In this document: positions 12,992 through 52,924 of the stretch, one piece after another
Layout: each line of letters opens with the position of its first letter
Numbering within the stretch: position 1 is the first letter of the stretch
Assembly (NCBI GenBank): GCA_027858715.1
Contig: JAQICD010000218.1
Location: 1-57,137, forward strand
Direction of reading: 5' to 3'
Source: Prolixibacteraceae bacterium
Lineage (GTDB): Bacteria > Bacteroidota > Bacteroidia > Bacteroidales > Prolixibacteraceae
Length of the DNA: 57,137 nucleotides
Position numbers and translations under genes: made by a program
The notes under the pieces: generated by a model
What the model was told of the DNA's origin: nothing
The model's database searches: none
What the model saw: the letters and a program-made list of their open reading frames with translations, nothing else

Positions 12992-13747
12992 TTATCCAAG
13001 ATTTATAGCATCGATATCATTTAATGATTTTAATACTTCCCGTTTCATTAAAAATCTCTCTTCACGGTCGCCACATTTCAAAATACACATATGAGTTTTC
13101 CGGTCAATCGAATCGATAAATTTCATATTTACCAGCGACGAACGGTTAATTTTTATAAAAAAATATGGTTCAAGCATCTCAATTAAATCCTTTACAGGAG
13201 TATTAATTTTTTTAATATCGCCATCACATAAAAACATCATGGTGATGCCTCTTTCGGATTTTACACAAAATATTTCGCGCGGGTTAATAAACAAGTATCC
13301 GTCAATAGTTTTAAATTTAAGCTTATCAGGAATCGAATTACCCCATATCGATTTGCTTTTTGAAAGCTTTTCTTCTTTTCTGATGTTCTGTTCAACTTTC
13401 GAAAGCACGTTAAAAACATCGTCTAATCCAAAGGGCTTAACCAGGTAATCGATCGGCTTTACTTCAATTGCATTATATGCATATTGTTTATAAGCCGTGG
13501 TGAATACAATCTGGGTATTTATATTATTATCGCGCAATCGTTTTGCAAAATCAAGTCCGTTTTCTTCGGGCATGTTAATATCAAGAAAAATCACGTCGGG
13601 CAAACAAGTTTCTATTAACTTCAGTGCTGAAGAAGTCTCACTTACTGTATCAATTATTTCAACACAGTCGCCAACTTGTAAATATTTTTCCAAAATACGT
13701 TGAGCTGAAATGTCATCATCAACTATTAAAGCCTTAATCTTCGACAT
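12992..13747 (-). CDS. LytTR-family response regulator (canonical receiver)
   Basis: IKALIVDDDISAQRIL, DVIFLDINMPEENGLDFA, DYLVKPFGLDDV; LytTR domain FKTIDGYLFINPREIFCVKSERGITMMFL...FFIKINRSSLVNMKFI. Confidence 0.9.
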   Translation of the reverse strand: MSKIKALIVDDDISAQRILEKYLQVGDCVEIIDTVSETSSALKLIETCLPDVIFLDINMPEENGLDFAKRLRDNNINTQIVFTTAYKQYAYNAIEVKPIDYLVKPFGLDDVFNVLSKVEQNIRKEEKLSKSKSIWGNSIPDKLKFKTIDGYLFINPREIFCVKSERGITMMFLCDGDIKKINTPVKDLIEMLEPYFFIKINRSSLVNMKFIDSIDRKTHMCILKCGDREERFLMKREVLKSLNDIDAINLG

Positions 13748-13750
13748 AGG

Positions 13751-14476
13751 TTATAAAATTGATTCTGTTTCTAATTTACGTATATATTTTTTAGACATTT
13801 TAAAACTGGTTGATTTTTCGTCATCAATAATACATTTTCCATCTTTTTTATTTACTTCTCTTACTCTGCTTAAATTCACCAGAACAGATCTGTTAATTCT
13901 TATAAAATTATATGTTTTTATTAAACCTTCAATTCGCCCCAGGTTATAGGTTGTATAATATGATGTTCCATCATTAAAAAAAAGATTAGTATAAGCGCCT
14001 TCAGCTTCACAATAAAGCATATGCTGCATGTCAATTAACCGATATCCCTTAATTGTTTTCATCCTCACTTTAACATCTTCTTTTGGAGATTTAACCAACT
14101 CTTCAGATGTATGTATCTCACGTATAAACTGTATTGCCTTTTTAATTGAAAGGTTCATCATTTTTGATGACAATGGCATAAGCAGAAAATCAAAGATATT
14201 GTTTCCGATTGCCTGTATCGCGTTATCAGCATCGTTAGCAATCAATATTACAGGAATATTCATTTCATTTTTTTGAATAATTCGTGCAAGCTCAAACCCA
14301 CTTCTGAATGATAATATTTCGGAAATAACAACGATGTCAGGTTTGATATCAAGTATCTGAAATGCGGCATCTTCAGCAGACACTGCATGAAAAACGTCAG
14401 TTTTATACTCGCCGGCAATATTTTCAAGATAATAATTTCTCGTTTCAGGTATTCCGTCAACAATTAATAGCTTCAT
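13751..14476 (-). CDS. LytTR-family regulator with degenerate (pseudo-)receiver domain
   Basis: Receiver-like N-terminus MKLLIVDGIPETRNYYLENI; LytTR domain MKTIKGYRLIDMQHMLYCEAEGAYTNLFFNDGTSYYTTYNLGRIEGLIKTYNFIRINRSVLVNLSRV. Confidence 0.85.
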   Translation of the reverse strand: MKLLIVDGIPETRNYYLENIAGEYKTDVFHAVSAEDAAFQILDIKPDIVVISEILSFRSGFELARIIQKNEMNIPVILIANDADNAIQAIGNNIFDFLLMPLSSKMMNLSIKKAIQFIREIHTSEELVKSPKEDVKVRMKTIKGYRLIDMQHMLYCEAEGAYTNLFFNDGTSYYTTYNLGRIEGLIKTYNFIRINRSVLVNLSRVREVNKKDGKCIIDDEKSTSFKMSKKYIRKLETESIL

Positions 14477-34537: not shown

Positions 34538-35869
34538 TTGAAAAAAATGCAGATATTTAATGAAAAGCAACAAAATCTTGCTCACAGAATTAATGAAGAC
34601 ACAACACTTAAAAATTGGAAAGACTGGAAATGGCAATTAAAGCACTCCGTTAAATCAATTGATAAATTCGAGTTGGTTAGCGGAATAAAATTTCCGGCAG
34701 ACTATCGAAAAAAATTAGAAGAAACACTTGAAATATTCCCTCTATCAGTTACCCCCTATTACATATCACTAATTGACGTTGACAACTACGAGAACGATCC
34801 TGTTTTCAAGCAATCGTTTGCCGACCAGCGCGAATTAATCACCAACAGTTCAGAGCATAGCGACCCCTTAGCCGAAGACAAAGACAGTCCGGTTGAAGGT
34901 ATTACTCACCGTTATCCCGACAGAGTATTGTTCCATGTCAGCAATATTTGCTCGATGTATTGCAGGCACTGTACCCGCAAGCGCAAAGTAGGCGACGTGG
35001 ATTTTGTACCTTCGAAGGCACAGCTCGAAAAGGGTATTGAATATATAAAAAACACACCGCAAGTACGCGACGTACTTCTTTCAGGCGGCGACCCGTTTAT
35101 GCTTTCGGACTCAATGCTCGACTGGCTGCTTTCGGAGATTTCTCAGATTGAACACGTAGAAGTAATTCGTATAGGAACCAGAATGCCGGTTGTATTACCA
35201 TACCGTATTACCGACAGCTTGCTGGAGATTTTAAAGAAATACCATCCAATTTGGATTAATACTCACTTTAACCACCCGCGCGAAGTAACTGATTCGGCAA
35301 GCGAGGCACTGGCAATGCTTGCCAATGCAGGTATCCCGCTAGGAAACCAGTCGGTACTACTGGCCGATGTAAACGACTGTCCGCGTATTATGAAAAAACT
35401 GGTACACGACCTGGTTAAAAACCGCGTACGTCCTTACTATCTCTATCAATGCGACCTTTCGGAAGGATTGGCACATTTCCGCACACCTGTTGGAAAGGGT
35501 ATCGAAATTATGGAAAGTCTTATTGGACATACCAGTGGTTTTGCCGTACCAACATATGTTATTGATGCACCCGGTGGTGGTGGGAAAATTCCTGTTATGC
35601 CGAATTACATCATCTCGTGGTCAACCAACAAGGTTATTCTCAGGAATTACGAGGGCGTTATTACTACCTACCAGGAACCCGACTCATACGAGGCCAGAGC
35701 ATGCGATCGAGATTGCAAGAACTGCGACCTTGACCTTAAGATGCAACCTTCGAAAGAATACGCAGCTACCGGAATCGAAAAATTATTGTCGGATTACGAC
35801 GATTCGATTTCGCTGATTCCGGAAGGAAATGAACGTTACGAAAGGAGGAGTGATGAAGATAATGGATAA
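34538..35869 (+). CDS. ablA: Lysine 2,3-aminomutase (radical SAM)
   Basis: [16 protein letters not shown] radical-SAM motif, [30 protein letters not shown]-terminal [10 protein letters not shown]. Paired with ablB. Confidence 0.93.
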
Positions 35870-36686
35870 AATTGAAAAGATTGACAATGCAACCATACAT
35901 CACGGAAAATATTCCGACCGATTGTATATTATGAAATTTCCGATTGACGGCGATAACTTACTGGTTGATAAACTAACTCAAAAAGCCATCAAACACGGAT
36001 ATTCAAAAATTACTGGGAAAATACCAAAAAAGGTACTCCCCCTGTTCCTTGAAAACGGCTATAAACTGGAAGCCGGCATTCCAAAATTTTATAACGGAAA
36101 GGAAGATTGCAGCTTTGTTTCGCGCTTTTTGGACATGGAGCGTGCTGTTTATGACCCTAAACCCTTAAAGAAATTCAACAAAGTTCTGGATGCATACGAA
36201 TTCACAGGAGAAGGTAATTACGAGCACAACTACGATATTCGCAAACTGGATAAAAGCCATGCAGAAGATATTGTAGCAGTTTTTAAACAAGTATTTGCCA
36301 CGTATCCTTTCCCGATTCACGATCCTGAATACATAAAAGAAACGATGAACAACGAGGTTGTTTATTTCGGAGTATTTATCGACGGAACACTACAAAGTGT
36401 ATCGTCGTCGGAGATGGATGTTAAAAGCCAGAATGCCGAGATGACCGACTTTGCGGTGCTCGATTCGGCACGTGGTCTGGGGCTTTCTAAGCTGTTGCTT
36501 CACGAAATGGAAGAACACATGAAAACGCAAGGCATGAAAACACTGTACACCATTGCACGACTAAAATCAATTCCGATGAACAAAACTTTTTTGGGCGCCG
36601 GTTACAGTTACTCGGGTACACTAATAAACAACACCAATATATCCGGTGGAATTGAAAGCATGAACATTCTTTATAAATACATCTAA
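35853..36686 (+). CDS. ablB: Beta-lysine N-acetyltransferase
   Basis: GNAT domain [55 protein letters not shown]; overlaps ablA and is preceded by AAAGGAGG. Confidence 0.85.
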
Positions 36687-48816: not shown

Positions 48817-49515
48817 ATGCAACAAAGAAAAATAACCATTGCCATTGACGGACATTCATCATCGGGTAAAAGCACCATTTCGAAACAACTGGCGTCAAGT
48901 TTGGGATACAAGTACATCGACACTGGCGCCATGTATCGTGCAGTAACACTTTTCGCCCTTCGTAACAAGTTAATCAGCAACAAAACAGTTGACAAAAAGA
49001 AGCTCAACGAAGAGTTGAAAAACATAAATATCGGTTTTAAATACAATTCTGAAACGCAACATAGCGACACCTATTTGAATGGCGAAAACATTGAAAACGA
49101 AATCAGGGAACTGGAGGTTTCGAATAATGTAAGCCCGGTAGCTACAATAAAAGATGTACGGCATGCAATGGTTAGAATTCAACAGCAAATGGGAAAAGAA
49201 AAAGGAATTGTGATGGACGGTCGCGACATTGGCACAGTTGTGTTTCCCGATGCCGAACTGAAAATTTTTCTCACAGCTTCGACCCGGGTTCGGGCTCAAC
49301 GCCGCTACGACGAACTTAGAGCCAAAGGGCTAGAGGTTTCGTTTGACGAAGTTTTAAAAAACATTGAAGAACGCGACTATATGGATTCGACCCGTGAAGA
49401 AAGCCCTTTAAAAAAAGCCGACGACGCCATAGTACTCGACAACAGTAACTTAGAACCCAAGGAGCAGATTGAATGGCTACTAAAAAAAGTAGAAGAAATA
49501 AAAAATGCAAATTGA
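48817..49515 (+). CDS. cmk: Cytidylate kinase
   Basis: [68 protein letters not shown]. Confidence 0.97.
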
Positions 49516-50377
49516 AATAGATAAGAAATCAGGATTTTGTTTTGGCGTACAACGAGCCATCGACAAGGTCGAAAATTTAATTCAACAAGGTGAAAAAATA
49601 AATTGCCTTGGCGACATTGTACACAACCACGAAGAAGTAAACAGGCTGTCGGAACTGGGCATGCACACCATACAAACAAGCGACATCGGAAACACCAGTA
49701 ACCAGACAGTTTTGGTGAGGTCACACGGCGAACCGCCTTCAACATTCGAGAAACTGAAAGCCAACAATAACAAAACCATTGATGCCACTTGTCCGGTTGT
49801 GTCAAAACTTCAAAACCGGGTAAAAAACAGCTACGCTGAAATAACCGGAAACAACGGGCAGTTGGTTATTTACGGAAAAAAAAAGCATCCGGAAGTTATC
49901 GGGCTCAACGGACAAACCGGAAACCGATCAATTGTGGTAACAACAAGCGACGATTTAGAAAAAATTGATTTCGACAGTCCCATCGAAATATACAGTCAGA
50001 CCACCATGCCACTGGAGGGTTTCAGTGCCATAACCGAACAAATAAAAGAAAGAGCAAAAAACCAGATAATCGTACATGATACCATTTGCAGGCAGGTTTC
50101 CGGTCGTGTTCCACATCTGAAAGAATTTGCGAAAAATTACGACGTTGTTTTGTTTGTCAGCGGTAAAAAAAGCTCGAACGGAAAATCGCTTTACGAAGTA
50201 TGCCGCAACAGCAATCCAAACACCTATTTTATATCTTCGGCCGATGAGGTCAAAGCAGAATGGATTAAAGTTGCTGAAAAAATTGGCATTTGTGGTGCCA
50301 CATCGACCCCACAATGGCTTATGGAAGAAGTAAAAACACATATCGAAAACAACTATCACAATAAAAAAAAGGAATGA
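49505..50377 (+). CDS. ispH: 4-hydroxy-3-methylbut-2-enyl diphosphate reductase
   Basis: [70 protein letters not shown]. Confidence 0.96.
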
Positions 50378-51369
50378 ACAAGCGAAAAAATATTAAACGA
50401 ATAGCCGTTTTCACCTCAGGTGGCGATGCTCCGGGTATGAATGCTGCGGTACGTGCCGTAACCCGTGCTGCACTGGCTCATAAGCTTGAAGTTTATGGAA
50501 TTAGACGTGGTTACCAGGGAATGATCGAAAACGACTTTGTGAAGCTTGAAGCAAGCGATGTCAGTGGCATCATGCACCTGGGCGGAACTTTCCTTCAAAC
50601 AGCTCGCAGCAAGGATTTCAGAACATACGAAGGTCGTAAAAAAGCATTCGAAAGTCTTAAGAGTCACCAGATTGATGCAGTGGTTGTTATCGGGGGAGAC
50701 GGCAGCTTTGCAGGCGCACTGGCATTCACCCATGAGTTCGACATGCCGTTTGTGGGCATACCCGGCACCATCGATAACGACATGTATGGAACTGACTATA
50801 CTATTGGCTACGACACAGCGCTGAACACTGTTGTTGAAGCAGTTGATAAAATAAAAGACACAGCCAGCTCACACGGACGTATTTTCTTTATTGAAGTTAT
50901 GGGGCACGAAGCCGGCGCACTGGCACTGAAAGCAGGACTGGCCTGTGGTGCAGAAGTAACATTTGTGCCCGAAATACAGGAAGAAGAAGTCGAACTTGAC
51001 AAGTTTCTGGCCAAAGATTACAAAAACAAAAAACGTTCGGGCATCATTATGGTTGCCGAGGGCGATCGTGCAGGAGGAGCACTGAAACTTGCAGAACAGG
51101 TACAACAGAAACATCCCGAAATAGATGTACGCGTTACAATTCTGGGGCATATTCAACGGGGAGGCAGCCCTACAGCCAACGACCGTGTTGCTGCTACTCA
51201 AATGGGAGTTGCAGCTGTCAATGCCCTTCTCGACGACCAGAAAAGTGTGATGGTTGGCCTGAAAAACGATAAGATTGTTCATGTTCCCTTATCAAAAGTG
51301 GTCAAAACCAATCGTGATTTCGACGCCGAACTTCTTTACATTCAAAGATTAATAAATTCGGCTTATTAA
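50374..51369 (+). CDS. pfkA: ATP-dependent 6-phosphofructokinase
   Basis: IAVFTSGGDAPGMNAAVRAV, VVIGGDGSFAGA, GIPGTIDNDMYGTDYTIGYDTALNTV, EVMGHEAGALAL, LGHIQRGGSPTANDR. Confidence 0.97.
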   Translation: MNKRKNIKRIAVFTSGGDAPGMNAAVRAVTRAALAHKLEVYGIRRGYQGMIENDFVKLEASDVSGIMHLGGTFLQTARSKDFRTYEGRKKAFESLKSHQIDAVVVIGGDGSFAGALAFTHEFDMPFVGIPGTIDNDMYGTDYTIGYDTALNTVVEAVDKIKDTASSHGRIFFIEVMGHEAGALALKAGLACGAEVTFVPEIQEEEVELDKFLAKDYKNKKRSGIIMVAEGDRAGGALKLAEQVQQKHPEIDVRVTILGHIQRGGSPTANDRVAATQMGVAAVNALLDDQKSVMVGLKNDKIVHVPLSKVVKTNRDFDAELLYIQRLINSAY

Positions 51370-51378
51370 TAAATGTTT

Positions 51379-51428
51379 TTCATCAAAAGAACAAAGCCAT
51401 TCATCAACAAAAAACATACGTTCATCAA
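51379..51428. promoter_or_regulatory. Three direct repeats TTCATCAA with exact 21-bp period (candidate operator array)
   Basis: Copies at 51379-51386, 51400-51407 and 51421-51428. Confidence 0.6.
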
Positions 51429-51443
51429 AATAAATCTCTTTTT

Positions 51444-51475
51444 TTTGTATTAAAGACTTTTTTGTCTTTATTTAG
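51444..51475 (+). promoter_or_regulatory. Candidate promoter (-33 TTTG at 51444; -7-like TATTTAG at 51469)
   Basis: 21-nt spacing; -7 match is imperfect. AAAGAC-TTTTTT-GTCTTT hairpin lies in the spacer. Confidence 0.35.
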
Positions 51476-51509
51476 CACTGTAAAACATATATAAAAAAAG
51501 GAGGTAATT

Positions 51510-51605
51510 ATGATTCATTTAGCAATTGCATTAGGTATTTTTATTGTTGCAGTAGGCTTAGCCTTCTTCAAAAGTGAAGCAAGCAATGATGCAACGCGAA
51601 ACTAA
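51510..51605 (+). CDS. 31-aa single-pass membrane microprotein
   Basis: Not in supplied ORF list. MIHLAIALGIFIVAVGLAFFKSEASNDATRN*, preceded by AAGGAGGT with 4-nt gap to ATG. Confidence 0.7.
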   Translation: MIHLAIALGIFIVAVGLAFFKSEASNDATRN

Positions 51606-51642
51606 ACAGCTGGTTTCAAGAGATTTAACAAAAATATTTTCT

Positions 51643-51667
51643 AGCAGTATCCTAAAAGGTTACTGCT
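51643..51667 (+). terminator. Hairpin downstream of microprotein, candidate terminator
   Basis: AGCAGTA...TACTGCT with inner CCT/AGG pairing; weak T tract (TTGTTATTT). Confidence 0.5.
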
Positions 51668-51769
51668 TTGTTATTTCCAAAAATCCTTATAACTTATCAA
51701 ACACAAAAAAAACCAGATATTAAAGCCACGAATACCCGAATAATAAAATAATACAAAACAACACATACG

Positions 51770-52924
51770 ATGTACTTTACTTTTAGCCATACTCCAACCT
51801 TACTTTTTGGAAACGGACAATTCAAAAAACTCACAGATCAAGTTAAATCATTCGGCAACAAAGTCCTCATTGTCAGCGGAAGTTCATTCAAACACTCAGC
51901 TCAAGCCGCAGAAATAACAAAGGCACTTCAAAACAGCAATATCGATTACATTTTTGAACAAATTCACGGCGAACCAACACCTGGGCAAATTGATAAACTC
52001 ACAGCCGACAACCGTGGTTTTGCCCCCGAAGTGGTGGTGGCCATTGGTGGCGGAAGTGTTTTGGATGCCGGCAAAGCAGTATCAGCTATGCTGTGCGAAA
52101 AAGGATCTATTACCGATTATCTCGAAGGCGTTGGCTTAAAGTCGCCCTCGGGTGCAAAAGTACCGATGATAGCAGTTCCTACCACATCGGGAACGGGCAG
52201 TGAGGCCACAAAAAATGCAGTAATCTCAAAAAATGGCAAAGACGGATTCAAAAAATCGCTGCGCCACAACAACTTTGTGCCCAACATTGCCATTGTTGAC
52301 CCCGCATTAACCGTTTCGTGTCCGCCGTCGGTTACAGCAGCTTCAGGCATGGATGCTTTCACCCAGCTTTTCGAATCGTACCTTTCGACACAATCGAACC
52401 CGATGACCGACGCCCTGGCTCTTGAAGGTTTAAAACGTGTTATCCATTCGCTTGAAGATGCTGTTTATGACGGAAAAAATATTGAAGCAAGAACCAACCT
52501 AAGCTATGCAGCATTTCTTTCGGGAATAACACTGGCCAATGCCGGGCTGGGCGTTGTACACGGATTTGCACAACCCCTGGGCAGTCTCTACCCCATCCCT
52601 CACGGTGTTGTTTGCGCCATTTTAACAGGCCCTGCAAATCGCGTTAGCGTTGAGAAACTACGCAAAGAAAACAATCAAATCGTTCTGGAAAAATACGCTA
52701 CTGCTGGACGGCTCGTAAATCATAAATTCGATGATGAAAAAGCTATTGATGGGCTTCTCGATTACATCGAAGGTTTGGCTACGTCATTCAAAATTCCAAA
52801 ACTTTCATCATTCGCTGTAACCCGGTCGGAATACAAAACGATTATCGCCCAAACCGGATTGAAAAACCACCCGGTTGAATTGAATGAGGATGAACTTGCA
52901 AAAATTCTTGATGCCTGTTTGTAG
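51770..52924 (+). CDS. Iron-containing alcohol dehydrogenase
   Basis: VVAIGGGSVLDAGKAVSAM, VPTTSGTGSEATKNAVI, GMDAFTQLFESYLS, GVVHGFAQPLGSLYPIPHGVVCAIL. Confidence 0.94.
   Translation: MYFTFSHTPTLLFGNGQFKKLTDQVKSFGNKVLIVSGSSFKHSAQAAEITKALQNSNIDYIFEQIHGEPTPGQIDKLTADNRGFAPEVVVAIGGGSVLDAGKAVSAMLCEKGSITDYLEGVGLKSPSGAKVPMIAVPTTSGTGSEATKNAVISKNGKDGFKKSLRHNNFVPNIAIVDPALTVSCPPSVTAASGMDAFTQLFESYLSTQSNPMTDALALEGLKRVIHSLEDAVYDGKNIEARTNLSYAAFLSGITLANAGLGVVHGFAQPLGSLYPIPHGVVCAILTGPANRVSVEKLRKENNQIVLEKYATAGRLVNHKFDDEKAIDGLLDYIEGLATSFKIPKLSSFAVTRSEYKTIIAQTGLKNHPVELNEDELAKILDACL

Follow-up and report, generated by a model that had tools for sequence, protein, structure and literature searches.

The window analysed here is a stretch of 57,137 nucleotides of Prolixibacteraceae DNA. 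On its plus strand, between pfkA (50374-51369) and a putative iron-alcohol-dehydrogenase-like gene (51770-52924), lies an open reading frame of 31 amino acids (51510-51605), to which the initial annotation had attributed the character of a membrane peptide. The predicted helix of its product agrees with this description, and the purifying selection on its family, reported below, shows the gene to be real. AlphaFold2 models the microprotein as a single helix over residues 3-28, with a pLDDT of 93 over residues 1-20, and the Kyte-Doolittle mean over residues 4-20 is between 2.5 and 3.0. Sequence and model agree on one hydrophobic helix in a protein of less than 50 amino acids, the features that define a single-pass membrane microprotein, and we infer that it inserts into the membrane as a single helix.

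The reading frame is preceded by a putative promoter of the Bacteroidota type (for the -33/-7 consensus, see PMC7366714), suspected earlier as a possible TTTG-N21 arrangement. The -33 element, TTTG (51444-51447), and the -7 element, TATTTAGC (51469-51476), similar to TAnnTTTG, are indeed separated by 21 nucleotides, and the latter stands at a fixed 39-40 bp from the operator boxes described below in most loci of the family. Transcription is predicted to start at about 51480. The gap between the two elements is filled by a palindrome, AAAGAC-TTTTTT-GTCTTT (51452-51469), a putative second operator. AAGAC-N6-GTCT was found upstream of microprotein genes at 7 of the 28 loci, namely the window and six others, when 0.19 was expected, and may be a site suited to a repressor or a second regulator. 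Downstream of the reading frame, the hairpin noticed in the initial annotation was located on the plus strand at 51643-51667. It resembles an intrinsic terminator (-11.4 kcal/mol, followed by the T-rich tail TTGTTATTT), and terminator-like hairpins of -5 kcal/mol or better stand behind 22 of the 28 copies of the family.

Spread and conservation of the microprotein

The microprotein was searched for in 61 relatives and, with a profile, in 140 genomes of the Prolixibacteraceae. With inspection of the sequences, this yielded 28 copies, 26 to 34 amino acids long, in 10 genomes and in 3 of the 23 genera of that bacterial family, a census in which distant members may be missed because the protein is so short, and in which the assemblies of most genomes of the genus are incomplete. 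Besides the genome of the window, the ten comprise six further species of its genus and three genomes from two other genera. The relatives concerned are uncultured Prolixibacteraceae assemblies from sediment bacteria, with several copies per genome. No further convincing microprotein was obtained in a draw of 344 genomes from the order and one of 396 genomes from the phylum, where the weak matches were stretches of long open frames.

Over 24 aligned members, the consensus reads MxYLxIAFGIFLIAVGxAFxxES, with M1, F11, A14 and G16 invariant. The dN/dS ratio was between 0.03 and 0.32 in ten comparable pairs, an eleventh pair being saturated, and we therefore conclude that the reading frame is protein-coding and under purifying selection. 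This result bears on a different reading, in which the transcript serves chiefly as a regulatory RNA, its reading frame being incidental. The unit is indeed short, with its own terminator, and other targets of the same array resemble small RNAs. However, a dN/dS far below 1, a peptide conserved though the DNA is divergent, and a distance of 5 nt between Shine-Dalgarno (SD) core and ATG in all five copies carrying an extended SD make such an RNA most improbable.

Synteny, which had been proposed as a check, was found: the pfkA-ORF-adh arrangement of the window genome (G000) is present in G001. The hom-ORF-ispE arrangement is kept across genera (G000, G001 and G028), and gltX adjoins microprotein copies in G005 and G028, with three tandem copies there. 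Judging from these neighbourhoods, kept across genomes, the locus is old.

The family has no match in NCBIfam and no curated Pfam family contains it, FixS, Hol_Tox and DUF7470 being matched by one member each; it was previously unlisted in curated collections. Membership of FixS/CcoS was rejected, the one match being below the cut-off. A profile search of the PDB returned a single match, to a photosystem helix (E 0.65), which was disregarded. A mobile or phage origin was also set aside, as the microprotein had no match in phage, plasmid and IMG/VR collections. E. coli YohP (27 aa), MgrB (47 aa) and DinQ are comparable in being very short, in having a single transmembrane helix and in being induced by a regulator. 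No sequence relation to them was found, and the microprotein differs in that one type of operator serves several paralogs in a genome. Among peptides of this size, MgrB is a kinase modulator and YohP slows metabolism under stress; for the microprotein, we infer a function as a regulatory or stress membrane peptide.

The operator array and its candidate regulator

Upstream of the promoter, TTCATCAA begins at exactly 51379, 51400 and 51421. The three repeats phased at 21 bp described in the initial annotation are thus exact, and the array is non-random across the 28 family loci. TTCATCAA is the visible part of a box of about 12 bp, N[AC]C[AG]TTC[AG]T[CA]AA. In a PWM scan, three putative boxes were placed on the plus strand: box 1, GTTTTTCATCAA (51375-51386), a weak copy 21 bp from box 2; box 2, GCCATTCATCAA (51396-51407); and box 3, TACGTTCATCAA (51417-51428), which is promoter-proximal and ends 40 bp before the -7 element. 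Boxes 2 and 3 are also supported by core and pair enrichment and by the geometry of the family.

In the 200 bp upstream of the 28 copies, 45 RTTCRTV cores were counted for 5.8 expected (maximum 15 in 2000 shuffles), as well as 19 exact 21-bp core pairs, in 14 loci, for 0.006 expected (shuffle maximum 1); with shuffles that resample to first order and with paralogous loci of common ancestry, these figures overstate independence. The fixed geometry of the boxes is independent of shuffle statistics, and is therefore unaffected by this caveat. The best three boxes per locus were mapped against the -7 element, with no spacing assumed and with a -7 pattern widened to admit TATTTAGC of the window and TAATATTG of locus L003; 54 of the 57 top boxes fell at 39 or 40 bp from this element, or further by multiples of 21 bp. 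Mean information was 0.95 bit in the box columns and 0.35 bit outside, meaning that boxes are kept while spacers drift. Conservation of the repeat and of its phase, another check proposed at the outset, thus extends to nearly every copy, boxes being absent from three of the 28 (L017, L024 and L055). Over both strands of the whole window, the box profile retrieved this array and one weak intragenic pair, at 49375 on the minus strand.

The initial annotation had linked the 21-bp period to LytTR-type regulators, while considering that the motif was not clearly LytTR-like. The link is strengthened, and the reservation has to be dropped: the motif had been taken one register short, and box 3 holds TACGTTCAT, a full match to what we take to be the AgrA-type LytTR consensus, [TA][AC][CA]GTTN[AG][TG]. 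The other boxes fit this consensus less well, and about half of them carry ATT, not GTT. Published LytTR sites consist of direct repeats of 9-11 bp separated by 11-13 bp, located just upstream of the -35 element, and the microprotein arrays contain two or more direct repeats of this length and spacing. In AgrA sites, the centre of the proximal repeat is near -60; here, the proximal box ends 39-40 bp before the -7 element, which puts its centre at about -58 if, as we suppose, the -7 element begins at -11. The E. coli LytTR regulator YpdB has a site, GGCATTTCAT, present twice with a 21 bp period, which GCCATTCAT in the microprotein boxes resembles. By repeat length, period and position, the boxes are most likely a LytTR-type operator.

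Alternatively, the arrays may be read by a direct-repeat activator outside the LytTR class, belonging to another response-regulator class or to a MerR/BldC-like one. Direct repeats with a 21 bp period are in principle not unique to LytTR, the ATT of about half the boxes departs from the GTT that we take to be classical, and LytTR sites are reported to share no common sequence. Nevertheless, repeat length, period, promoter distance and similarity to the sites of AgrA and YpdB all fit LytTR, whose genes are abundant (13-23 per genome), one of them adjoining an array, and we consider such an activator quite unlikely. Compared to known AgrA/LytTR operators (S. aureus agr P2/P3, HdrRM/BrsRM, YpdB-PyhjX), the arrays share direct repeats of 9-12 bp, the 21-bp period, a promoter-proximal repeat near -60, and small-peptide and RNA targets. 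They differ in often having three boxes, in their Bacteroidota -33/-7 promoter, and in having as yet a candidate regulator only.

This candidate for the reader of the LytTR-type arrays comes from contig C50 of G028, where a LytTR response-regulator gene, preceded by a TPR-His_kinase gene, is immediately followed by an array and a gene of 153 aa. Orthologs with 63-72% identity were found in G031, G010, G004, G003, G002, G001, G000 (C239) and G006. Counting G028, nine of the ten microprotein genomes carry the regulator at no less than 63% identity and no other genome does, the next-best matches (49-55% identity) belonging to genera that lack the microprotein. An array near the operon of this regulator was seen in one genome only, and the candidate is not pinned down because several other LytTR regulators, five or more, are equally common to G000 and G028. 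Co-occurrence alone was rejected as proof, given these shared orthologs and a Fisher test (p 1.4e-6) confounded by phylogeny. On these sequence grounds, the G028:C50-type response regulator is put forward as a tentative candidate activator of the arrays.

The window itself contains two adjacent LytTR response-regulator genes on the minus strand (12992-14476), which diverge fast: their counterparts in G028 are 37% identical, versus 73% for a neighbour. A link between these two genes and the array had been envisaged. They lie on the same contig and their LytTR domains were confirmed; however, the operator is conserved in G028 despite the divergence of the regulators, and the microprotein array is the only one in the window, which leaves no autoregulatory array at the LytTR genes. 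It is therefore very unlikely that they regulate the unit.

The extended Shine-Dalgarno sequence

Ahead of the ATG stands an extended SD, AAAGGAGGT (51497-51505, plus strand), with 5 nt between GGAGG and ATG and a pairing energy of -13.6 kcal/mol, computed with the 16S tail of a relative (G036). The AAGGAGGT that it contains (51498-51505) is the sole copy in the window. None of the 37 window genes reaches -10 kcal/mol at its first ATG (three alternative starts do). The match, called unusual for Bacteroidota in the initial annotation, is real. An extended SD is found on one microprotein copy in each of five genomes (G000, G001, G002, G006 and G010). The pairing energy of these copies ranges from -12.4 to -13.9 kcal/mol, and in four of the five genomes it is below -13 kcal/mol. 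These five copies are alike in protein sequence (MI[HY]LAIA...GLA). A sixth copy reaches -8.2 kcal/mol, and the rest are essentially devoid of SD. The earlier proposal that the SD is selected, or reflects strong translation, can thus be retained in part: the SD is conserved in one subfamily, but most copies have none, and strong translation is possible in that subfamily only.

In F. johnsoniae, SDs below -13 kcal/mol are used by ribosomes lacking bS21, and the SD of the window, at -13.6 kcal/mol, lies in the energy range of the rpsU type (below about -13 kcal/mol). It shares with the extended SD of Flavobacteriales rpsU, which is involved in bS21 autoregulation, a pairing that comes close to -13 kcal/mol or is stronger, in a phylum rarely using SDs. 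The difference is that it is carried here by a microprotein gene, whereas no SD precedes rpsU in the seven microprotein genomes checked. By this comparison, the extended SD would be read, in the microprotein genomes, by ribosomes with a free anti-Shine-Dalgarno. We consider it unlikely that one microprotein per genome is doubly gated, by LytTR transcription and by specialised ribosomes lacking bS21 or bS18; if this were true, a membrane peptide of Bacteroidota would be directly controlled by what its ribosomes are made of. In a phylum mostly ignoring SDs, the extended SD is a natural case for asking whether specialised ribosomes also act on non-ribosomal genes.

Elsewhere in the window, at 34538-36686, the second gene of a pair has an alternative start with an SD pairing of -17.5 kcal/mol, unusual for the phylum. 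We presume this pair to be ablA/ablB-like.

Other array targets and the proposed transcription unit

Exact 21-bp pairs, counted against a reversed control, were 8 to 0 in the genome of the window, 11 to 0 in G001, 6 to 0 in G010, 10 to 0 in G028 and 5 to 0 in G031. Arrays of this kind also stand before other genes and before RNA-like units, and we conclude that they form a regulon. Further targets are surface proteins with GEVED and lectin-like domains, and a beta-lactamase-fold-like protein. Three genera have, behind an array, a gene for a 153-aa protein that matches nothing in Pfam and whose N-terminus is signal-like (L131, L139, L140 and L142). In G001 (C70, L132), an array stands before an operon encoding a 110-aa protein, HlyD and a Peptidase_C39 protein, as in bacteriocin-type export.

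Two RNA-like units were observed. Unit A, GCTTAATCAAAACCAGTTTAATTTTCTCTTTTCCAACCACAC...CCGGCTTTTTTT, is at least 90% identical across the same three genera as the microprotein (L217-L225, at G002:C193, G010:C51, G028:C46, G031:C237, G003:C47, G000:C24 and others), and has a 21-bp array upstream in 5 of 9 genomes. Unit B, CTCCCCTCCCTGTTTTACAA... with a terminator, lies behind the same boxes at G000:C177, G001:C179 and G006:C473 (L231, L232 and L235). In G000 and G001 it precedes a 250-aa lipoprotein-like gene, of which it may be the leader. Rfam returned nothing for the microprotein unit of the window nor for these RNA-like candidates.

Such a regulon raises the question of whether the microprotein, under LytTR quorum or envelope control, acts on membranes or is secreted, in the manner of a bacteriocin, a phenol-soluble modulin or a toxin that slows growth. 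Small peptides are classical targets of LytTR regulators elsewhere, the L132 operon contains exporter parts, several microprotein paralogs are present per genome, some in tandem, YohP slows E. coli growth if made early, and one microprotein has a weak match to Hol_Tox. However, this match concerns 1 of 24 members (E 0.0037), no leader peptide or double-glycine site is present in the microprotein, and its copies are stable at housekeeping loci, with no adjoining exporters or immunity genes. Antisense -7 elements over the gene are not enriched (3 of 28 loci, for 4.2 expected), which lends no support to an antisense-controlled type I toxin. We regard a membrane-active or secreted product as somewhat unlikely. 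The AgrA regulon offers a parallel, with LytTR-type sites before RNA-like units and very short peptides (RNAIII, phenol-soluble modulins); compared to the latter, the microproteins look like transmembrane helices.

We propose that the region is, with good probability, a complete transcription unit of a dispersed LytTR regulon encoding a membrane peptide. The self-contained regulated unit suggested in the initial annotation is supported by the conserved reading frame, by the operator and promoter geometry, and by the terminator. A LytTR-type response regulator, probably phosphorylated beforehand by a sensor kinase, would bind along one side of the DNA helix, at two or three direct repeats with a 21 bp period, and would activate, rather than repress, the Bacteroidota-type TTTG/TAnnTTTG promoter. 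The resulting short mRNA, ending at its own terminator, would encode a single-helix inner-membrane peptide with a conserved face of small residues (G9, A14, G16 and A18), which most likely acts by packing its helix against a membrane partner or against another copy of itself. The extended SD of the window's subfamily would add a translational control, through ribosomes with a free anti-Shine-Dalgarno.

These Prolixibacteraceae thus possess an unlisted microprotein family, defined by selection and by a shared promoter, within a probable LytTR-type regulon of Bacteroidota that recalls the agr regulon in its targets, which include RNA-like units and short peptides as well as proteins of the surface or secreted ones. 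With the operator as a guide, further small genes that escaped annotation can be sought across whole genomes.
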